Shown here in pieces: positions 5,442 through 15,931 of a DNA stretch of 49,530 nucleotides (the first letter of the stretch is position 1; every line of letters begins with the position of its first letter). This DNA is from an uncultured Erysipelotrichaceae bacterium. GTDB taxonomy: Bacteria > Bacillota_I > Bacilli_A > RFN20 > CAG-826. The position numbers and the translations under genes are program-made. The stretch is taken from contig CADBXE010000002.1 of NCBI GenBank assembly GCA_902798595.1, positions 1-49,530 of the forward strand, read 5' to 3'. The notes below the pieces were generated by a model. It was not told the origin of the DNA and did no database searches. It worked only from the letters and a program-made list of their open reading frames with translations.

Positions 5442-6149
5442 ATGAAAGAATTTCTTAAGAAATATAGATCCTCAATTATCAAAACCATCATCGTGATTGC
5501 TGTGTTAGTGGCTATTGCGGTGGGCGTTTATTTTATATTACGTGCCTGTGGCTTCACTAAAGCGGAAGATTACATCAATCTAAAAAATCAATTCGGTGAT
5601 AGTGTGGCTTTCTGGCTCATCGTCGGTTTGCTTGAAGTCGTACAAGTTATCTTTGTTCCAATTACCAATCAAATCATTACCGTTCCTGTCGCTATGGTCT
5701 TTAATGATGAATTATGGAAAGTATGGCTGACCGCTTGGATTAGTATTTGGCTTGCCACTTTAATTCTTTATTGGATTGGTAGAGTTGGTGGACCAAAACT
5801 TTTAAAGTGGATATTAAACGACCAAGAACAAGTGGAGAAGTGCACTAAGTTTTTGAATAGAGGCTGGTTGTTTTACCCAATTGGTATGCTGTTACCATTG
5901 CCAGATGATGTTATTACCACTTTAGCGGGTACCGCTAAGATGAACTTCTTCTTCGTTGCCATATGCTCGTTTTTCACTCGTGCCTTAGATACTGCGTTCA
6001 GTGTTTTCCTGTATGGTTATGCTGTTCGTCATCCATGGCTATGGATTATCATAGTGGTGGGCACAATTGCTTTGTTTTTATTCACATTCTTCCTTTGGAA
6101 GCATGACCAAAAGAAAAGAAAACAATTGGAAGTTGAGAAGGCTGAATAA
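5442..6149 (+). CDS. TVP38/TMEM64 (VTT/DedA-like) family membrane protein
   Basis: A 235-residue integral membrane protein. After a short basic N-terminus comes a helix at about 12-33, then hydrophobic stretches near 52-72, 82-112, 140-160, 165-185 and 200-222. The family hallmarks are the GRVGGPKLLKW segment and the re-entrant LLPLPDDVITTLAGTAKMN region, corresponding to the conserved P-x-x-D/P-x-x-x-x-x-G core of VTT proteins. Members are linked to lipid scrambling and membrane homeostasis; the substrate here is unknown. It ends 7 nt before a strong hairpin terminator. AAGG touches the ATG directly, too close to act as a normal ribosome site. Confidence 0.82.
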   Translation: MKEFLKKYRSSIIKTIIVIAVLVAIAVGVYFILRACGFTKAEDYINLKNQFGDSVAFWLIVGLLEVVQVIFVPITNQIITVPVAMVFNDELWKVWLTAWISIWLATLILYWIGRVGGPKLLKWILNDQEQVEKCTKFLNRGWLFYPIGMLLPLPDDVITTLAGTAKMNFFFVAICSFFTRALDTAFSVFLYGYAVRHPWLWIIIVVGTIALFLFTFFLWKHDQKKRKQLEVEKAE

Positions 6150-6153
6150 AAAT

Positions 6154-6179
6154 AAAAAAAGTGCAAATTGCACTTTTTT
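6154..6179. terminator. Bidirectional intrinsic terminator
   Basis: A 10-bp perfect stem (AAAAAGTGCA / TGCACTTTTT) with a 3-nt AAT loop and A/T tracts on both sides. It can end the plus-strand VTT gene and the minus-strand tRNA-Gly (and trxA operon) transcripts. Confidence 0.85.
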
Positions 6180-6188
6180 AAATACTTC

Positions 6189-6262
6189 TGGAGCAAGTGA
6201 CGGGAATCGAACCCGCATAATCAGCTTGGAAGGCTGATGTTCTACCACTGAACTACACTTGC
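6189..6262 (-). tRNA. tRNA-Gly(TCC)
   Basis: A complete 74-nt cloverleaf. The acceptor stem is GCAAGTG/CACTTGC and the D arm is GTTCAGTGGTAGAAC. The anticodon loop is CTTCCAA, with anticodon TCC flanked by the TCAGC/GCTGA stem. The T arm is CGGGTTCGATTCCCG, with discriminator T and an encoded CCA (6189-6191). The anticodon reads GGA/GGG, and possibly all GGN by wobble. It is a lone tRNA 50 nt downstream of trxA with its own promoter, and it ends at the shared terminator. Confidence 0.97.
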
Positions 6263-6312: not shown

Positions 6313-6615
6313 TTATTGATTAATGAAAGATAAGAGCTGATTTTTATTTTGATAGCCCATTCTCACATCAACGCGTTGACCATCTTTAAATAACATTAAG
6401 GTTGGAACAGCTTGAATACCATATTGTGCGGCTAATGGGCCAGCTTCATCAACATCCACTTTAATAATGGTGGCGTTAACTTCATTGCTTACCTCTTCTA
6501 AAACAGGGGAAAGCATTTTGCATGGGCCACACCAAGTGGCAAAGAAATCGACTAAGACAGTACCTTCTTTAATCGCAGCATTGAATTCGTCACGGTCATT
6601 AATATGTTTTAACAT
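6313..6615 (-). CDS. trxA: Thioredoxin
   Basis: A 100-residue thioredoxin, the cytoplasmic dithiol-disulfide oxidoreductase. The active site WCGPCK has C29 and C32; the cis-proline loop is seen in IQAVPTLMLFKDGQ, and the buried Asp is D23 in LVDFFATW. The start at 6615 is chosen because a perfect AGGAGGA lies 8-9 nt upstream and the protein then has the standard thioredoxin length; an in-frame extension to 6708 would add 31 atypical residues. It follows the TraX-like gene by 11 nt, the ribosome site sitting right at that gene's stop. It is probably the last gene of the CPBP-TraX-trxA operon. Confidence 0.95.
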   Translation of the reverse strand: MLKHINDRDEFNAAIKEGTVLVDFFATWCGPCKMLSPVLEEVSNEVNATIIKVDVDEAGPLAAQYGIQAVPTLMLFKDGQRVDVRMGYQNKNQLLSFINQ

Positions 6616-6626
6616 AATTCTTCCTC

Positions 6627-7511
6627 CTACATATACATAATTGCAAATATTAAGATAATGATTACCAGGTGTAGTGGATAGTAAAGATAACACCCATACT
6701 GGAACCATTTTCTATTATATCCGCGGCTTCCGTTATAAAGCAAAATAAACGCTCCAGCAATAATTGCGAAGATTTGAATGCTTGTCATCGCATTAGGCAT
6801 GTAGTAGATATTTGCACTGATATATGATTCTGATAAATAGAATACAACAGCGAAAACCACTAGTAGTAAAGCGCTAATTAAGTTAATCGCATTTCTTTCT
6901 AAATTACTGCCTTTATAGAGGTCAGGATCTGTACCAGATTGTGAACTAAGCATTTTAACGAATACGCCCCCTAATAAGTGAGCGAAATAGAAACCAATAA
7001 TTAAGGTAATACCAAACCAGCCATACTGGGTGCGTAGGAAATATGGAAACCATAGGACCTCGCCTTGGCAACCACACGCATCGTGACATGACGCAATGTA
7101 AGAAGTAATGCCATACGCTAAAGGCAATAGGGCTAATAACTTGATATACCATTTCTTTTGTTTTAAGAGGAATATCGCAACCGCACCTAAAAGTAGGTCA
7201 ATAAAAATCACGCCAGCATTTTTCATTGAACCGCCGTTATTTTTAATAAAAGGAACAACTTCGGTGAGGACAATAATTAACGATATGCTCGCGGCCATAA
7301 CGCCTAATCTTAAAGCATACTTTTTATAGTTATGGGTATGGATGACACCTTCTGCAATCATAAAGCAGAAAAGCGGTAGGGCTAATCTACCAATATAACG
7401 AAACGGCTCAATATCAAAAGTTAAACCGATGTGATCGATTGTCATAGTGACTAAAGCAATAACCTTGAGCCAAAAACTGCTTAATATGAGAGGAAATCTA
7501 CGATTTTGCAT
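6627..7511 (-). CDS. TraX family membrane protein
   Basis: A 294-residue polytopic membrane protein with about eight hydrophobic segments. TraX-family signatures are visible: the N-terminal LKVIALVTMTIDHIG, then YIGRLALPLFCFMIAEG, and the C-terminal WFQYGCYLYYPLHLVIIIL. F-plasmid TraX acetylates pilin, but chromosomal homologues in Firmicutes are not tied to conjugation and may acetylate surface or secreted molecules. No conjugation genes are present here, so a cell-envelope acyltransferase role is the best inference. It overlaps the upstream CPBP gene by 14 nt, has no separate ribosome site, and is probably translated by coupling. Confidence 0.82.
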   Translation of the reverse strand: MQNRRFPLILSSFWLKVIALVTMTIDHIGLTFDIEPFRYIGRLALPLFCFMIAEGVIHTHNYKKYALRLGVMAASISLIIVLTEVVPFIKNNGGSMKNAGVIFIDLLLGAVAIFLLKQKKWYIKLLALLPLAYGITSYIASCHDACGCQGEVLWFPYFLRTQYGWFGITLIIGFYFAHLLGGVFVKMLSSQSGTDPDLYKGSNLERNAINLISALLLVVFAVVFYLSESYISANIYYMPNAMTSIQIFAIIAGAFILLYNGSRGYNRKWFQYGCYLYYPLHLVIIILIFAIMYM

Positions 7512-8331
7512 ATGCTCTAATAAATACTGTCAATAAAGCGTAAGAATTATATAACACGTGAGCGGTCATAGAGCACGCTGGTCCACGATGTTCATATGCT
7601 AATGTTAATATAAAACCAGTCACTATGTAAGTTGGTAATGACTGAAACTCCAAAACAATATCTTTTGCTTCAAAATCAAAATGAATAAATGCGAAGACAA
7701 TACTGACCACAACGAAGGCTACATATTTGTTATATCTTCTAAGAAAAGAGAATAAGCCAACACGATAAGTTAATTCTTCACAAAGAGGGCCGATTATGCA
7801 AAGAACAGGAATTGAAAAAAGAGGATAACTTAATGCTACAGTTTCAATTGTGTCTTGGTTAACGTTGTTATCAATTTTAAAAAATAGTGACATGATAGCG
7901 CCCAAGATAACTGACGCCATGACTACCGTCACCGCATATCCGATACCGTATATATAATCGATTCCATTAGTGTATTTCTCAACGAAGTACTTTCGTCTAC
8001 CAGTGAATAAGGCCAACACCAACAAGCTAACAAGCATGGTACTGTAGATGATGGTCATGAAGGTGATACTTTTAAAAGCGTTATCACCTGGGAAGGCATC
8101 TTTAAATAGAGAAACGATGAATTCTAGGATGAACATCCCAAAAAAAGCAAACCCCACAAGGAACATCCCAATTTGTACAAAAGGGTGGAAAAAAACTGCC
8201 CTCTCTGGCATGCGTTTTATTCTGAATATATCGTTGTATTTTTGACATTTAGGACATTTATTCAATGCCCTGTCATGATATGTATCGCAATGCGGGCACC
8301 TTGTCTTCGGGTACAATTCATCTATCAACAT
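7498..8331 (-). CDS. CPBP-family intramembrane glutamic protease with N-terminal zinc ribbon
   Basis: A 277-residue membrane protein. Residues 12-29 carry a zinc ribbon (C12, C15, C26, C29), followed by about seven membrane helices. The CPBP/Abi catalytic motif 1 is EELTYR (E185, E186, R190), motif 2 is FAFIHFDF with H217, and motif 3 is the later H258-x3-N262. This matches the Rce1-like group whose bacterial members process or protect against small peptides; the substrate is unknown. The added N-terminal zinc ribbon is seen in some Firmicutes relatives and would face the cytoplasm. First gene of the operon with TraX-like and trxA. Confidence 0.87.
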   Translation of the reverse strand: MLIDELYPKTRCPHCDTYHDRALNKCPKCQKYNDIFRIKRMPERAVFFHPFVQIGMFLVGFAFFGMFILEFIVSLFKDAFPGDNAFKSITFMTIIYSTMLVSLLVLALFTGRRKYFVEKYTNGIDYIYGIGYAVTVVMASVILGAIMSLFFKIDNNVNQDTIETVALSYPLFSIPVLCIIGPLCEELTYRVGLFSFLRRYNKYVAFVVVSIVFAFIHFDFEAKDIVLEFQSLPTYIVTGFILTLAYEHRGPACSMTAHVLYNSYALLTVFIRAYAKS

Positions 8332-8354
8332 TTTCTTTTAATCCTATTAAAAAA

Positions 8355-8360
8355 ATTATA
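8355..8360 (-). promoter_or_regulatory. -10 box of the CPBP-TraX-trxA operon
   Basis: A consensus TATAAT sits 23 nt upstream of the ATG at 8331 on the minus strand, with AGGA between them. The -35 match is weak. Next to it, ATAACTT-TTTT-AAGTTAT (8386-8403) is a perfect 7-bp inverted repeat in the space between this gene and the divergent giant gene; it may be an operator or a 5' RNA hairpin. Confidence 0.4.
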
Positions 8361-8416
8361 CACTAAATACAGGTCTTGTTTAGCAATAACTTTTTTAAGT
8401 TATCACAGTTGGCATT

Positions 8417-11400
8417 ATGAAATTCGATTTCCAAGCGATTACCGGTTACTTTAATTTAGCGTTAGTGCTTCTTTTTGTGTTGTTTATCGGTGGTGTTGTT
8501 GTTGCTGCCTTTAGAGGTTTGAGGCGTGGTGTTTGGAAATCCACACACAACATGGTGTGCATGCTCTCTCTTGTCATCATCGCTTTTGTTACATTAGATC
8601 CATTATGCAAATTCGTTGAGAACTTTGATTTATCTCCATTCATCAAAGGCTCATTTTTTATAAAAGAAAACCTCGGTGATGGCGCTTTTAATACGTATTG
8701 GGTGCCGATTACTTCTGTTAAAGAAACCGTCACTGAATTCATCAAAGGCTTCTATCTCACGTTCAACGTTTCCGCTACAACTGCTAGTGCGGCTAATTTC
8801 GCCTTTGCTCTAGCGGAATCTGTCATTAAAATCGTTTTATTCCTCGTTGATATTATTTTAATTGTTACCTTAGGTAATCTTTTCAGTTTCATCACTTGGT
8901 ATCTTATTTTTCAACACTTCGTGCCAAAGATTGCACGTAAGACAGTTAAGGTTAGATGGTTGGGCGCTCTTGAAACAGCGGCAACGTTTGTCGTTTTGAC
9001 CGCATTATTCTTCACCCCATTCACTTCCTTAGTAAATTCCCTTAACCAGTCTTATCAACACAACAAACCAAAAAGTGATAATGAAACCATCGTTAACATT
9101 GGCAACTTTGTTGATGCATATAATGATTCCCTATTTGCTAAAATCTTATTTAACTGGACGGTTGATGGTAGTGGTATGACTATTGATACCCGTTTATTCA
9201 GTACTTTTACCACTGGTATCAGCGAAGATGTGAGCATCTCTCTTGTTGGCGAATTGGCAAATCTTACAAACCTTATTGTTATCGGTGCTTCTGGTGTAAC
9301 CTCCACAGATGAAGGCCAATTCTCATATGACCCAATCGGTCTCATTTCTCAAGAAGTTATTGATGGGGCATTTGATGTTTTATCTAATTCCACTTTAATT
9401 ACTTCCGTTCTCCCATTAGTGGCTGACATCGCACTTAACAGTTCGATGATGGATGAATTTATCCCTAATCGCTTAATTGATGTTAGTGACGCTAATTGGA
9501 AGGAAGAAATTGGTTATGTCCAAAACATGGTGGACTGCTTATTCGATAGTGGTGTCATGGATAAACTCATCGTCTACGAAGATGGCAAACAAAAAGTCCG
9601 TACCTTAGAAGGTAATGATATTACTTCCTTTATTGAAGAGATTGTTTTTGATGAACAATTCGATAGTATTCTCGAAATCTTTAAATCAATAGATGATTCT
9701 AGAGTCCTTTCACGTGTGGTTCCTGCGGTGATGTACTATTTCACAACCGCTGACACAACCGGTCAAGTTGGTAAATATTTACCATTATCATGGGAAGAAT
9801 TATCCGAATTTTCTTGGGGTTATGAATGCTATGTTTTATTTGACTTCTTACATAAGGCCGCAACTTTAGACAGAGATTTCATCAAAGCTATCATGGTGAA
9901 AACTAGTGCTTACACCCCTATGGAAGGTGAAGAAGTACCAACATTAGAATCTTTGATTTCTAAACATGTTGATAAGTTTAACGAATTAATGGTTGGTAAG
10001 CTCGATAGTGAAGGTAAACCAGTTAACGTTGATAAATATGGCCGTACAATCGTCTTTAAAGATGGTAAACGTATCGAAGGACGTAATTACTGCTTATTTG
10101 ATATGAAGATGATTGAAAAGGCTTTGCCTTCTGTCGTCGATACACTCTTTGAATTAGATTTCATGAAAGATCTCAGCAAAGATGTAACTGAAAACGACAT
10201 TAACTCTTATCATGGTGCGGTTGAAAAACTTAAACAAGGTGTTATTTTGTCTAATTTCAAACAAGAATTCGGTGCTTTATTGGATATTGTTGGTACAGTT
10301 GCGAAAGATGAAGAATTGCTAACCGCCTTATTTAGTGGTCAAGGCTTAACACCATTAATGAAAGAGTCTAATAATTTCTTCTCTATCGATTCTAAACACA
10401 TTGAATACTTTGGTGATGCTTTCCGCAAGATGGATAAATCATCCTTGCTTTATTACGGCATTGTTCCAATCATTAAAGCCACAATTAATGGTGTAGATGT
10501 AAAAGGCACACTTAACGATATCGGTTTAAAGAGTGAAGTTATCGTCTCCGCGATTGACCATGATATGAAGAAACAAAGTCATACTTTCTTCACCGATTTT
10601 GCCTCTTTATTAGACAATTGGTCTGATTTAGGGAAAATGCAAACCTTAATTGATGGAAACGGTGGCGAAGACCTGATCATGGATAAATTTAAAGATGAAA
10701 ATCTCGTTGATTCCTTAATTAGCATTCTTTCAGTTATTTGGAAAAACCCATTATTTAATCCAACTCCTGAAGCTGGTGATACATATGAAAAGAACGAAAA
10801 CCTCTATAGTTTATTAGAGTTTGTTTTTGGTCAAACAGCAAACATCGGTTTAAAAGTGGAACGTGAAACGTTAAGAAAAGTCGAAACAAATGGTCATACT
10901 TGGGATGACGAATTTGGTGCAATTGGAAATATTATCAAATACATCGCTAATCACGATGTCACTAAAGCTGCGGACATGTTTAACGATGGCTTAAGCAGAT
11001 CATCCATTCTTAATCTTAAGGAAGAGGGTGAAGGCAAAGTAGGCCTACCACGTCTCTTCACTTTAGTGAATGAATCATATATCTTTAAATCAAGTTTAGG
11101 ACCATTCTTAGATGATATGCTTGGTGATGCTTTAAGTGGTTTCTTGACTGATAAAGGCAGTAATGTCTCGTTTGGTAACATCACCAACTGGGCAGAAGAA
11201 GGACAAAGAATTTCTAACTTGTTAGATTCCTTATATAATCTAATTCCTGAAAACGATGCTGAAGCTAAAAACTTCTTGACCAATTTTGATATGTCCAAGC
11301 TTCACAATGTCGTGGAATTAAATGACATGCTCCATCAATTAGCCTATTCTGGTATTTTCACATATATCGATGAAAATAATGTTCAACATTATCAATTTGG

Positions 11401-14400
11401 TCGTTGGTTCTATCAAAAGATTAATGATTCGATGGTCAAATTTAGCGTTAACGCTACTGAATACGACTTATTAGCGGATCCAAAAGCCGCTGATGATGCT
11501 ACATGGTCATGGAAAGAAAGTTGGGGCATTAAACCTGCCGCCGATGTCACTAACCCTGACCCATATTTCGAAGAATATAGACAGACTTATAATCCAGAAT
11601 ACGCTCTTACCGCTACGCATATGATTGCGTATCGCGACTTCGTTTATTTGGGTGGTAAAGCTAACACTGATTCGACATTGCCAACTGATTGGTGCAACTA
11701 TGTTGAATTTACCACCAAGCAAGCAGCTTTCTTAGCTGCCCATAAAGCGGACTTAACAAATGCCACAAGCCCATATCTGACCGATAACGAATGGGGTGCA
11801 TATTTTGGTAGTGATGCCTTCATTAGTGATTACGATGAAGTCTTTAGTTGTGATGAAATCTCTCGTGTTTGTAAGTTTATGACTTACTCTTTACGCGTTA
11901 TTGAAAAGAGAACAGTGGGTCCAAACGCTGGTACTCAAGTACCATTTAACGAACTACCAATTAACGTTTTGGATGGCTTATTGACATCGATTAATAACAC
12001 CAGTTCTTTACGTATTTGCCTATACAACTTCTACCGTGTTGCCGCTGAAAACTTATTAAATGGTTACAGTGCCTTTAACTTATCAAGTGCTTACAATGCT
12101 TATATCGTGGATGCTAATTATGATATGTTTGACTTCGCTAATTCTCGTCCAGCTAGACAAGCTGAGCTTGATAAGATGATTGATTTCTATAAAGTCATCG
12201 ATAAAGCAAAAACTAAAGGTGTCCTTGTCGGTAGTGATTTTGATTATTCCAAGATGAACCAAGATGGCTTTATCAATGATATGAAGAAAGCTATCAACGA
12301 TTTCAATAGTTCTTATATCTTCCATCGTTCAGGCTCTGCAAAAGTTAATGCCTTAACAACATTCCAAGGCCTATTTAATTCCATGCTTGCTCAAAGTAGC
12401 ATTAAAGATGTTATTTATCTAGGCGAGAATTCACCAAAAGACCAAGCTTCCACACTCTACAATAGCAAAAAATCAAAGATTGAATATCTCGTCACTTCTG
12501 TTTTCTTAACTGACCAACAAATTAGTGATCAATCTTTAAACTTTGAAGAACAAAGAAATAGACAAGCTAATGAAATTAATGGCTTAATGGACTGTGTTGA
12601 TTCCTTATATTCCTTGAAGAAGAGTGACGGCACACAAGCTACATCCATTAATGACGCAGACATGAACAAGAGTGAAAACGTCGAAACCATTGAGACACTA
12701 TTCACTAAACTCAATAATAGTGAGCTTCTCTATGACGCTTTACCAAACTCCATCTATAACATCTTCGTACAAAACGACCAATTATCCATTGAAAATGGTG
12801 GCGAAAAGGTTGACTTTAAACGTGTCGACCCATTCTATCATTATTACTTCAATGACCATATTGAAAGAAGTACTCCAAACTTTAATGCTAAATATCTACA
12901 AAAAGATATTACCAGCATCATTTCCTTGTTGACTGATTATCAAGAATTCAATACCCAATTAGATGGTAAGGAAATGTCTGATCCTGCCACCCTTAAAACA
13001 TTGACTGGTACTGGTGGTGCTCTTAAGAGTGTGCTTGTAGATATGCATAATTCTAACTTATTCCATACACCAGCTAGAAACTATGAAGGTTTATCGCCTT
13101 ACTACACCAATAAATACGAAACAGGTACAGGCTTCACATTATTCGAAGAAATGATGTCCAAGATTTGCTCCTTCGTGAAATTAGATACATTCGCTTACGA
13201 TGAAACATTTGCTGATGATGTTTCCAACTATGGTAACGCTTCTAATAAGTTAGTGGCTAAAGTGAACGCTGTCACTCTTGCAGATGATGGTCAAGCTTCA
13301 TCCACAATCTACAGCGTGGGTGAGGGTACAGCTTGGGTGCATGAGATTGATTCGATGAAGAACCTCGCTAATACCGCTGCTGGTTTAGGCAGTGGTTCAT
13401 CCTTGGATGTGTCTAACTTCGAACTCGATAAACTTGCCCCAGCGGACGTCAAGAGCATGCTCACATGCGTTAATGCTTCTGACTTAGTGGGCGATGCCAT
13501 TCCTAAGTTTGTTAAAGATGGTTTCACATCCATTAAGCTTGGCACATTGACAAGCTACAATGATGTTGATTACGCAACATATCGTTTAGGTCAAGTTGCT
13601 TATGGCGGTGCGGATGCTCTTGCTAGCGAAGGTACTGAAATTGATAACATTTATAATGTTATGACCAGCTTATATGTTGGTGATCATTATATTGAAGGCA
13701 TGGATAATTTAACTAACTTTGTTAAAACCACCGAAGGCCAAAACGGTTTAAGAGGTCTAATTAAATATCTCTATTGTTCTCGCATTTTAAATACCAATAG
13801 GAACATGGTTGATGGTTACGATGAACTATATGTCGTTGAAGGTCGTGAGCTCAGCGCGCGTGGCGCATTAATCGTTAACGCTTTAGGTAATGACTTAGCC
13901 CAATACATTGCTAGAGATGCTAATAGTGCTACACCAGTTGCTAATAAACTCCAACAAATTGAAAGAATTAGTCAACTTCTCGCTCTTGACCAATACAAAG
14001 ACGAAGAGGTGAAAACATATACTGTTGAAGCTGAAGGCTTAATCACCTTAATCACTAATAGCGAAGGCAAGATTAACGCTGAAAGCTTATCTTCTGATAA
14101 GTTACAAACAGATGACTTCAGAAATAACACTAAACCAGCATTGTTAACAATTATCTCTTCTTCCTATAATGCTACTAACGAAGCTAATGAAGTGGATTAT
14201 AAACGTTCCGTAATCGCTAGTGAATTTATTTCCGGTGCTTTAAATAACGTTTTAGAAAACGAATATGTGAAGTTGGATAACGTTACTAATTACCCTGGAT
14301 ATGTCTATCGCTTGTTCAGCTTTGCTAACGATGTCGATGATGGCGTTATTAATCTTGAAGATTATCAGACCATGGGCAAGATTGAATGCGATGGTTTAGA

Positions 14401-14713
14401 TGGCATGATTGATGCCTTAGCGCAAGTCAAGAATCTCAACTCAGGTTTGACTCCAGAACAAATAACCGCCTTAAAGAATAACTTCGCAAAGATGGGTTTA
14501 GAAAATGGCAATAATTCTAAGATTGCTCAAGCTATCTATCTCGCGGAAGCTCATTCCAAATTTAAGTTATTAGCCCTTGTTCCTAATTCCAGAATGGAAT
14601 TCTTTACTCCTGTAAACGAAACATCAACAAACGAAAATGAAGCCAATAACGTTTATAGTAATACCTTCTGTTTTAAGGAATATGGCGAAAGAGTGGAGGC
14701 TTTCTTGTCCTAA
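8417..14713 (+). CDS. Giant membrane-anchored protein: CvpA-like four-helix module plus about 1,890-residue predicted extracellular repeat region
   Basis: At 2,098 residues this is by far the largest gene here, and I do not recognise it as a whole. Membrane helices are seen at about 13-32, 44-61, 135-158 and 183-208. Basic loops at 33-41 (RGLRRGVWK) and 170-180 (KIARKTVKVR) mark the cytoplasmic side, so both the N-terminus and everything after 208 should lie outside. The RGLRRG loop and WLGALETAA resemble CvpA proteins. The exterior part is rich in Asn, Asp and Ser and has few cysteines. It repeats a loose motif of the form L-F-x3-N-x-S-x-L-L-x3-[LIV]-P-x-[LFV], seen near residues 318, 417, 559, 665, 878, 1186, 1425, 1536 and 1677. 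There is no LPxTG, SLH or known enzymatic motif. Codon use resembles its neighbours. The IMPACT gene starts 1 nt after its stop. Confidence 0.85.
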   Translation: MKFDFQAITGYFNLALVLLFVLFIGGVVVAAFRGLRRGVWKSTHNMVCMLSLVIIAFVTLDPLCKFVENFDLSPFIKGSFFIKENLGDGAFNTYWVPITSVKETVTEFIKGFYLTFNVSATTASAANFAFALAESVIKIVLFLVDIILIVTLGNLFSFITWYLIFQHFVPKIARKTVKVRWLGALETAATFVVLTALFFTPFTSLVNSLNQSYQHNKPKSDNETIVNIGNFVDAYNDSLFAKILFNWTVDGSGMTIDTRLFSTFTTGISEDVSISLVGELANLTNLIVIGASGVTSTDEGQFSYDPIGLISQEVIDGAFDVLSNSTLITSVLPLVADIALNSSMMDEFIPNRLIDVSDANWKEEIGYVQNMVDCLFDSGVMDKLIVYEDGKQKVRTLEGNDITSFIEEIVFDEQFDSILEIFKSIDDSRVLSRVVPAVMYYFTTADTTGQVGKYLPLSWEELSEFSWGYECYVLFDFLHKAATLDRDFIKAIMVKTSAYTPMEGEEVPTLESLISKHVDKFNELMVGKLDSEGKPVNVDKYGRTIVFKDGKRIEGRNYCLFDMKMIEKALPSVVDTLFELDFMKDLSKDVTENDINSYHGAVEKLKQGVILSNFKQEFGALLDIVGTVAKDEELLTALFSGQGLTPLMKESNNFFSIDSKHIEYFGDAFRKMDKSSLLYYGIVPIIKATINGVDVKGTLNDIGLKSEVIVSAIDHDMKKQSHTFFTDFASLLDNWSDLGKMQTLIDGNGGEDLIMDKFKDENLVDSLISILSVIWKNPLFNPTPEAGDTYEKNENLYSLLEFVFGQTANIGLKVERETLRKVETNGHTWDDEFGAIGNIIKYIANHDVTKAADMFNDGLSRSSILNLKEEGEGKVGLPRLFTLVNESYIFKSSLGPFLDDMLGDALSGFLTDKGSNVSFGNITNWAEEGQRISNLLDSLYNLIPENDAEAKNFLTNFDMSKLHNVVELNDMLHQLAYSGIFTYIDENNVQHYQFGRWFYQKINDSMVKFSVNATEYDLLADPKAADDATWSWKESWGIKPAADVTNPDPYFEEYRQTYNPEYALTATHMIAYRDFVYLGGKANTDSTLPTDWCNYVEFTTKQAAFLAAHKADLTNATSPYLTDNEWGAYFGSDAFISDYDEVFSCDEISRVCKFMTYSLRVIEKRTVGPNAGTQVPFNELPINVLDGLLTSINNTSSLRICLYNFYRVAAENLLNGYSAFNLSSAYNAYIVDANYDMFDFANSRPARQAELDKMIDFYKVIDKAKTKGVLVGSDFDYSKMNQDGFINDMKKAINDFNSSYIFHRSGSAKVNALTTFQGLFNSMLAQSSIKDVIYLGENSPKDQASTLYNSKKSKIEYLVTSVFLTDQQISDQSLNFEEQRNRQANEINGLMDCVDSLYSLKKSDGTQATSINDADMNKSENVETIETLFTKLNNSELLYDALPNSIYNIFVQNDQLSIENGGEKVDFKRVDPFYHYYFNDHIERSTPNFNAKYLQKDITSIISLLTDYQEFNTQLDGKEMSDPATLKTLTGTGGALKSVLVDMHNSNLFHTPARNYEGLSPYYTNKYETGTGFTLFEEMMSKICSFVKLDTFAYDETFADDVSNYGNASNKLVAKVNAVTLADDGQASSTIYSVGEGTAWVHEIDSMKNLANTAAGLGSGSSLDVSNFELDKLAPADVKSMLTCVNASDLVGDAIPKFVKDGFTSIKLGTLTSYNDVDYATYRLGQVAYGGADALASEGTEIDNIYNVMTSLYVGDHYIEGMDNLTNFVKTTEGQNGLRGLIKYLYCSRILNTNRNMVDGYDELYVVEGRELSARGALIVNALGNDLAQYIARDANSATPVANKLQQIERISQLLALDQYKDEEVKTYTVEAEGLITLITNSEGKINAESLSSDKLQTDDFRNNTKPALLTIISSSYNATNEANEVDYKRSVIASEFISGALNNVLENEYVKLDNVTNYPGYVYRLFSFANDVDDGVINLEDYQTMGKIECDGLDGMIDALAQVKNLNSGLTPEQITALKNNFAKMGLENGNNSKIAQAIYLAEAHSKFKLLALVPNSRMEFFTPVNETSTNENEANNVYSNTFCFKEYGERVEAFLS

Positions 14714-14714
14714 T

Positions 14715-15095
14715 ATGGCCTACACAGTAAAACAACAACATATCAATCAAATTGAGGTGATGAAAAGTAAATTCATCGCCTATTTTCTCCCTTTGAATAG
14801 TGAAGAAGACTTTAAACCATTTCTCGCTAATCTCCGTAAAGAACACAAAAAAGCGCGACATGTTGTCTATGCTTATCGCGTTAATATGAAAAGCAAATCT
14901 AGCGATGATGGAGAGCCAAAAGGTACAGCTGGCCATCCTTTGTTAGAACTGCTTTATAAAAAAGACATTAATAATGTCGCTCTTATAGTGGTAAGATATT
15001 TCGGTGGGACCAAATTAGGGGCCTCACGTTTACTCAGAACCTACTTGCAAGCGGGTATTGATGTTATTACTAGTAGCGAGTTAATCGCTTTATAG
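14715..15095 (+). CDS. Short IMPACT/YigZ-family protein (UPF0029 N-terminal domain only)
   Basis: A 126-residue protein of the IMPACT family. Hallmarks are HVVYAYRV, SSDDGEPKGTAGHPLLELL and the VRYFGGTKLGASRLLRTY core. Typical bacterial YigZ/YvyE proteins are about 205-215 residues with a second ferredoxin-like domain; that C-terminal domain is absent here and the gene stops cleanly after the first. The start at 14715 is chosen because it lies 1 nt after the stop of the giant gene and begins the family N-terminus (MAYTVKQQHINQIEVMKSKF). An in-frame ATG at 14637 lies inside the upstream gene. The family is linked to translation and elongation factors, but its biochemistry is unsettled. Confidence 0.88.
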   Translation: MAYTVKQQHINQIEVMKSKFIAYFLPLNSEEDFKPFLANLRKEHKKARHVVYAYRVNMKSKSSDDGEPKGTAGHPLLELLYKKDINNVALIVVRYFGGTKLGASRLLRTYLQAGIDVITSSELIAL

Positions 15096-15115
15096 AATAG
15101 AAAGGTTAACAACAT

Positions 15116-15931
15116 ATGGCAGAATGCAATCATGACTGTAGTAGTTGCTCGGTTGAAGGATGTGGTGAACGCATCGTTAAGAGCAAGCAAAACGAATTAA
15201 GTAATATTAAAAGAATAATTGCCGTGTTAAGCGGTAAGGGTGGTGTCGGTAAATCCTTCGTCACCTCCTCAATCGCTTCTTATTTGAATAGAAATGGCTT
15301 AAAAGTCGGCATCTTGGACGCCGATATTACTGGCCCAAGTATTCCAAAGGCCTTTGGCATTAAAGAAAAAGCGTACGGCGAAAATAACTTTATTTTCCCA
15401 TGCAAGACACCAGGCGGTATCGAAGTGATGAGCGCTAACTTATTGCTTGATAACGAATCTGATCCAATTCTTTGGAGAGGCCCATTAGTGGGGAACCTTG
15501 TTAAGCAATTCTTTGAAGATGTTGCTTGGGGTGACCTAGATGTCTTATTAATTGATATGCCTCCAGGCACAGGTGATGTGGCTTTAACCACATTCCAAAG
15601 CTTACCAATCGATGATTTAATCATCGTTACTTCCCCTCAAGACTTAGTTTCTTTAATCGTTACTAAAGCTATCAAGATGGCGGAAATGATGAATATTAAC
15701 ATCCTTGGTGTGATTGAAAACATGTCTTATTTAGTTTGCCCAAAATGCGAAGAAAAGATTCCTTTATTTGGTGAATCTCATTTAGAAGGATTTGCAAAGC
15801 AAATGAACTTTAATATTTTAGGCAAATTACCATTAAATAGTGCGAACACCGCACTCATGGATAAGGGAGAAATTGAAAAACTCATTCTTCCAGAAATCCA
15901 ACCAATTATTGATAGAATCAAAGGAGAATAA
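15116..15931 (+). CDS. Mrp/ApbC-type iron-sulfur cluster carrier ATPase
   Basis: A 271-residue P-loop ATPase of the Mrp/NBP35 group, which transfers Fe-S clusters to apoproteins in the cytoplasm. The deviant Walker A is GKGGVGKS (residues 40-47). Walker B-type LLIDMPPGTGD lies at 144-154, and the cluster-binding CxxC is C208-P-K-C211. The N-terminus carries extra cysteines (C4, C8, C11, C16) reminiscent of the NBP35 N-terminal cluster, though with different spacing. A GAAAGG ribosome site lies upstream. The next gene (aminopeptidase P) starts 2 nt after its stop. Confidence 0.9.
   Translation: MAECNHDCSSCSVEGCGERIVKSKQNELSNIKRIIAVLSGKGGVGKSFVTSSIASYLNRNGLKVGILDADITGPSIPKAFGIKEKAYGENNFIFPCKTPGGIEVMSANLLLDNESDPILWRGPLVGNLVKQFFEDVAWGDLDVLLIDMPPGTGDVALTTFQSLPIDDLIIVTSPQDLVSLIVTKAIKMAEMMNINILGVIENMSYLVCPKCEEKIPLFGESHLEGFAKQMNFNILGKLPLNSANTALMDKGEIEKLILPEIQPIIDRIKGE

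Follow-up and report, generated by a model that had tools for sequence, protein, structure and literature searches.

Organization of the giant gene

The window analysed here is a stretch of 49,530 nucleotides from an uncultured Erysipelotrichaceae bacterium (GenBank assembly GCA_902798595.1, contig CADBXE010000002.1, positions 1 to 49,530 of the forward strand). It carries the gene of a 2,098-residue protein, termed here the giant, in which a CvpA-like domain of four transmembrane (TM) helices is followed by a long degenerate repeat array predicted to lie outside the cell. The open reading frame (ORF) is uninterrupted, with no internal stops, makes up 12.7% of the window and is present as a single copy in its genome. 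A sequence-only reading, made without database searches, had described a protein of this length whose gene fills about 13% of the window, and this description holds. The protein ends ...KEYGERVEAFLS and has neither an LPXTG motif nor a C-terminal hydrophobic tail. Its parts are listed below. The repeat units were placed by a hidden Markov model (HMM) of the unit and by their register; motif numbers are residue positions, and the sequence-only reading had overlooked the motifs marked as new.

8417..14713, +, ORF of the giant, stop included, 2,098 aa
8417..9046, +, CvpA-like four-helix membrane domain, predicted N-out, residues 1-210, GLRRG signature after TM1
9035..9226, +, juxtamembrane collar, residues 207-270, best-conserved extracytoplasmic stretch
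9209..9487, +, repeat unit 1, residues 265-357, motif 322
9467..9781, +, repeat unit 2, residues 351-455, motif 422
9782..10249, +, repeat unit 3, residues 456-611, motif 560, long internal insertion
10232..10576, +, repeat unit 4, residues 606-720, motif 669
10556..10891, +, repeat unit 5, residues 714-825, motif 771 (new)
10868..11185, +, repeat unit 6, residues 818-923, motif 881
11162..11500, +, repeat unit 7, residues 916-1028, motif 973 (new)
11501..11818, +, insertion between units 7 and 8, residues 1029-1134, unmatched by the unit model
11819..12154, +, repeat unit 8, residues 1135-1246, motif 1189
12137..12556, +, repeat unit 9, residues 1241-1380, motif 1294 (new)
12551..12895, +, repeat unit 10, residues 1379-1493, motif 1428
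12884..13324, +, repeat unit 11, residues 1490-1636, motif 1542
13313..13630, +, repeat unit 12, residues 1633-1738, motif 1681
13613..14032, +, repeat unit 13, residues 1733-1872, motif 1781 (new)
14033..14710, +, C-terminal part, residues 1873-2098, unmatched by the unit model

The insertion at residues 1029-1134 is shorter or absent in several other genera.

Repeat array

The ectodomain is confirmed by profile comparison as a genuine degenerate tandem repeat of one unit. A profile built from 25 family members matched itself off the diagonal at offsets of about 1, 2, 3 and 4 units, with a best E-value of 5e-40. Column shuffles gave no such match (E 1) and the reversed profile reached 8e-4 at best; the latter control was added because shuffling by itself was judged too lenient. 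In the profile of the genus, block 1289-1675 matched 1536-1898 at E 5e-6. The unit model, built from the positions in the window protein and their orthologues, tiles residues 265-1872 in a single register as 13 units, each about 106 aa long. True giants score 33-481 bits with it, and no reversed or shuffled protein exceeds 20.4 bits. The model also finds the repeat in proteins that were not used for training: 10 units in L065, 5 in L066, 7 in L067, 10 in L068, 9 in L069 and 18 in L076. The key residues of all 13 motifs map to model position 61/62, which is a consistency check and not independent evidence, as the alignment behind the model includes those residues.

The six motifs that the sequence-only reading had quoted (at 322, 422, 669, 881, 1428 and 1681) are all present, and its three weaker copies near 559, 1186 and 1536 are real and occupy the same register position. 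These nine sites stand, but the account of the recurrence was incomplete, with four more copies at 771, 973, 1294 and 1781. The irregular spacing reported with them, about 90-310 residues, is not borne out: the units are fairly regularly spaced, with a median of 107 aa, and the spacing had seemed irregular because these four copies were missed and because of the insertion at 1029-1134.

Across 35 proteins the total length follows 689 + 106.5 × the number of units (r = 0.92), with extremes of 3 units in L049 (832 aa) and 18 units; L048, which is truncated by a contig end (at least 2,662 aa), has 21. Within the genome of the window the repeat was seen only in the giant ORF. The gene has no tandem repeat at the DNA level; the array is therefore old, and a recent tandem duplication in DNA was rejected.

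Membrane domain and topology

The TM segments of the window protein span residues 14-32, 46-64, 135-153 and 188-206, and no segment of its ectodomain is as hydrophobic as these four. Lysine and arginine residues were summed over those family members in which all four TM segments are clearly called. The N-terminus holds 3, the short loop 1-2 holds 98, the long loop 2-3, which is balanced by aspartate and glutamate, holds 113, the short loop 3-4 holds 205, and the 30 residues after TM4 hold 77. Because of this distribution both ends of the membrane domain are placed outside, and an N-out/C-out topology with an extracytoplasmic ectodomain is predicted, with strong support, by the positive-inside rule. 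The ectodomain is strongly acidic in every family member (net charge -67 to -265). The sequence-only reading had proposed the same arrangement, four N-terminal helices with positive-inside loops and a large region outside, from the window protein; the charge pattern of the whole family agrees with it.

The window protein has no match in Pfam (E < 10) or NCBIfam, so that its relation to CvpA cannot be read from it directly and was reached through relatives. Three distant orthologues, L065 (1,586 aa), L066 (1,019 aa) and L067 (1,182 aa), match the CvpA family PF02674 at E 3e-6, 3e-5 and 2e-4, respectively, and no other family significantly. The N-terminal profile of the giant family recovers L065 and L066 strongly (4e-49 and 4e-24) and L067 more weakly (3e-9). 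The curated Pfam cut-off of PF02674 is 29.3 bits; L065 scored 27.7 bits in hmmscan and 31.6 bits summed in the genome profile search. When a profile of 30 N-terminal domains was aligned by hhalign with ordinary CvpA proteins from within the order, 132 columns were matched at 96.8% and E 2e-10, compared with 0.046 for the reversed control; a profile restricted to the genus gave a far weaker result (28.9%, 36 columns). The alignment has GxxRG after TM1 and a basic loop before TM4 in common between the giants and CvpA proteins. Distant homology of the membrane domain to CvpA is thus well supported by profile comparison, as the sequence-only reading had surmised from the anchor, and the window protein itself stays below the cut-off for formal membership in PF02674.

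Structure prediction and database searches

AlphaFold2 models of residues 1-620 and 1140-1845 had predicted local distance difference test (pLDDT) scores of 33.7 and 33.8. The models are unusable because only four similar sequences were supplied as input, and a tertiary structure or fold search based on them was set aside. The predicted secondary structure is helix-rich, which at this pLDDT of about 34 offers weak support at most. Sequence searches of the PDB gave no relative of the giant, and none of the repeat unit below E 0.28. In a Pfam scan of 61 units only scattered matches in one or two members were found (best E 0.005), so the units match no Pfam model, including FIVAR, GA, Ebh, SLH and Ig, beyond chance. 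No enzyme, sortase or adhesin family was matched in the giant in Pfam or NCBIfam; these scans and inspection of the C-terminus agree with the earlier observation that sortase signals and SLH, Ig or enzyme motifs are absent. Viral contigs yielded no additional family sequences. The sequence-only reading knew of no characterised protein of this architecture, and none has an entry in the databases searched.

Distribution

Full-length or partial orthologues occur in 14 of 15 genomes of the same genus (46-65% identity), and many genomes of the same family have orthologues at about 26-33% identity. The near relatives L002-L004 are metagenome-assembled genomes labelled Erysipelotrichaceae, Bacilli or Bacillales, and L003 comes from the omasum of water deer. 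Within the order, the N-terminal profile identifies a member, carried by a reading frame of 741 codons or more, in 74 of 117 genomes. When the repeat served as the sole query against 395 genomes from the class, 60 were positive, other orders included. In the fourteen regions examined, the repeat-bearing ORFs range from 1,078 aa up to a frame of 6,056 codons and begin with the hydrophobic stretch typical of this design; every start that is neither cut off nor called internally has four TM helices. As the query lacked the N-terminus, these four-helix starts confirm the architecture independently. Outside the order, many of these ORFs match the N-terminal profile clearly (5e-9 to 7e-22), and the most distant share the TM pattern and the motif only. 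Several genomes have giant reading frames of 4,000-6,000 codons. In family f12 (L101, L103 and L104) two CvpA-anchored giants stand in tandem, the first of about 1,080 aa and the second of 4,400-6,056 codons. A draw from the phylum, in which the share of non-class genomes is not shown, gave no added match labelled outside the class.

Selection and constancy of length

The ratio of nonsynonymous to synonymous substitution rates (dN/dS) was computed among the three close relatives L002-L004. It is 0.067-0.089 for the whole gene, 0.06-0.11 for both blocks of units and 0 for the collar (dN = 0 for residues 211-270); the neighbouring genes have values of 0.007-0.068. These comparisons show strong purifying selection on the ectodomain along its whole length. 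Of the 12 proteins counted in the genus, all but one carry 13 units, the exception carrying 14; total lengths are 2,094-2,137 aa, and the number of units is near constant despite identity falling to 45%. The fixed count and the low dN/dS point to a conserved structural length rather than to a size-variable adhesin.

Neighbouring genes and empty sites

The genes next to the giant are as follows.

6313..6708, -, thioredoxin, ORF overlapping the TraX ORF, orthologues about 101 aa
6627..7511, -, TraX-family membrane protein, divergent
7498..8331, -, CPBP (Rce1-like) intramembrane protease, divergent
14715..15095, +, IMPACT/YigZ gene, ATG one base past the stop of the giant
15116..15931, +, Mrp/ApbC-type iron-sulphur carrier, syntenic

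The giant and the IMPACT/YigZ gene are probably co-transcribed, as judged from the gap of one base between stop and ATG. The start at 14715 was preferred over 14637 because the orthologues are mostly 125-128 aa. A scan of 8200-15200 for promoters and terminators found sites no more common than in shuffled sequence. A gene of a VTT/DedA-family membrane protein lies at 5442-6262 beside tRNA-Gly(TCC), and the genes that separate Ham1 from thioredoxin are not the same in the window as in L002/L003.

The block of thioredoxin, TraX and CPBP (divergent), giant, and IMPACT, Mrp, aminopeptidase P and FGGY kinase is kept, apart from local exceptions, in three or more families of the order, also where identity between the giants is down to about 20%. 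Nineteen further sites (L115-L133) were located through TraX; at all 19, CPBP adjoins IMPACT and the giant is cleanly missing: thioredoxin-TraX-CPBP and IMPACT-(Mrp)-aminopeptidase P are kept and the gene of about 6 kb is gone. The sites belong to many genera of one family without a penicillin-binding protein (PBP) transpeptidase, and represent 18 genomes with no detected giant plus G117, which has a short member elsewhere. This member (741 codons, G117:C4:111385), found while the usual site (L131) is empty, may be a relocated gene or a paralogue. Since the block is intact without it, the simplest view is that the giant was ancestral at this site and was lost more than once. The neighbours persist without the giant, so they are independent of it and tell little about its function, and TraX, CPBP, thioredoxin, IMPACT and Mrp were downgraded as functional partners. 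The IMPACT and mrp genes, which the sequence-only reading had singled out as possible conserved neighbours, are indeed conserved across the order, as is the TraX/CPBP side, but they do not form a functional partner set.

Proposed role

The architecture of the giant is firm; its function is proposed from that architecture. The best reading, tentative and a little short of an even chance, is an outward-facing helical envelope scaffold of fixed reach. The roles offered by the sequence-only reading (envelope scaffold, adhesin, lipid/protein bridge) were given as speculation and keep that status. In this single-copy envelope protein the CvpA-type four-helix domain would be embedded in the cytoplasmic membrane, its two ends facing outwards, and the conserved collar (207-270) would join it to the acidic array, made up of 13 helical units each about 106 aa long. 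The units may stack as an extended rod or superhelix, the number of units setting the reach. The giant would then act as a scaffold or spacer of fixed length in walled and wall-less members alike, and would be dispensable in some wall-less lineages. Two points weigh against this: the pLDDT of 34 leaves the rod to be derived from length scaling and sequence, and the four-helix CvpA-type domain, kept in every member, hints at a role in transport or sensing, because a pure anchor would not need it.

The main alternative, less probable than the scaffold and on balance unlikely, is a transporting CvpA-type domain with a guiding array, in which the four helices would pass or flip a substrate and the helical array would serve as a groove or conduit through the envelope. 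The complete membrane domain is retained wherever the start is visible, and the adjoining collar is the most constrained stretch. CvpA of Escherichia coli is needed for deoxycholate resistance, and Pfam groups CvpA with LysE-type exporters (PMC6705877); the mechanism of CvpA itself is not established, however, no partner gene can be named as the neighbours persist without the giant, and a groove lacks support from a fold. A broader proposal, which may be entertained as a rather doubtful possibility, is an undescribed class-wide envelope machine of uncultured Bacilli. Here the CvpA-type unit would not be a mere anchor and would work actively with a modular arm (3 to more than 20 units, in ORFs that reach about 6,000 codons) as an export conduit or as a scaffold that senses force or length.

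An adhesin or leg-like surface protein akin to Gli349 of Mycoplasma mobile, with host mucus, feed particles or other cells as targets, would fit a giant, outward-facing protein with repeats of about 100 aa in host-associated, partly wall-less Bacilli. It is judged improbable, about as much so as transport: surface adhesins usually vary more than the genus-constant unit number and the ectodomain dN/dS of 0.07-0.09 allow, neither a distinct binding module nor a known adhesin domain is present, and the giant is near-universal also in the PBP-positive members of the order.

The remaining two explanations concern the cell wall. The genome of the window (77% complete) lacks a PBP transpeptidase (PF00905) as well as any canonical CvpA above the cut-off, the giant being the only CvpA-like protein found in it; the two absences suggest a peptidoglycan-deficient cell. 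Families deficient in peptidoglycan have been predicted in order RFN20, to which the window probably belongs, and no srtA/B sortases were reported there (Field et al. 2024, PMC10868615); the split into walled and wall-less families seen here resembles the one described in that study. A PBP transpeptidase is encoded by 26 of the order's 117 genomes, and the giant is present in 25 of these 26 and in 49 of the 91 PBP-negative genomes (Fisher p = 4e-5, uncorrected for descent). This difference, and the fact that every empty site examined lies in PBP-negative genomes of one family, would suit a peptidoglycan-linked factor in wall synthesis, division or anchoring that becomes dispensable once the wall is lost. 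Such a role is nevertheless quite unlikely: the p-value takes no account of phylogeny, the giant is retained in 14 of 15 genomes of the window's genus though the incomplete genome of the window lacks the transpeptidase, and across the class the repeat occurs in 20 of 174 PBP-positive and 40 of 221 PBP-negative genomes, with no clear link. An exoskeleton of protein, standing in for peptidoglycan where the wall has been lost, would suit the PBP-less window genome and the RFN20 families predicted to be peptidoglycan-deficient in an order without sortases (PMC10868615), but is largely refuted as a general role and very improbable, since 25 of 26 PBP-positive relatives carry the giant and 42 of 91 PBP-negative genomes lack it, with clean empty sites.

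Comparison with known systems

Streamlined gut Bacilli with genomes of 0.8-2 Mb devote 2.5 to 18 kb to this one family-less protein, which is kept under strong purifying selection and has been cleanly dropped in several lineages. It offers a handle on the envelope make-up of uncultured Bacilli that are partly wall-less and poor in sortases. Both ectodomain-bearing CvpA proteins and giant surface proteins built of repeats are already known; the repeat domain is undescribed, and the databases and literature searched contained neither the combination of CvpA with the repeat, nor the unit itself, nor its spread through the class.

Ebh of staphylococci is a giant helical surface protein composed of FIVAR/GA modules. 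The giant resembles it in its long helical tandem array outside the cell, and differs in units that are unmatched in Pfam, in lacking a sortase design and in its CvpA-like base. Gli349 of M. mobile, a wall-less relative of the Bacilli, is the leg protein for gliding and has 3,183 aa and 18 repeats of about 100 aa (PMC7052211). Compared by description only, both are giant surface proteins with repeats of about 100 aa (13 of about 106 aa in the window protein), whereas Gli349 has a single N-terminal TM segment, a gliding role and a C-terminal foot in place of the four TM segments of the giant. With CvpA proteins (PF02674) the giants share the four TM helices in N-out/C-out orientation, the GxxRG after TM1 and the basic TM3-TM4 loop; ordinary members here have about 175-340 aa, and the giants add about 600 to several thousand residues outside. 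Mycobacterial fusions of the MarP type join a CvpA-like four-TM domain to an extracytoplasmic chymotrypsin-like protease. The giant has its parts in the same order, the CvpA-like four-TM domain first and the extracytoplasmic domain after it, but Pfam and NCBIfam detect no protease family in it; it defines a new repeat domain and a second main kind of CvpA-ectodomain fusion.

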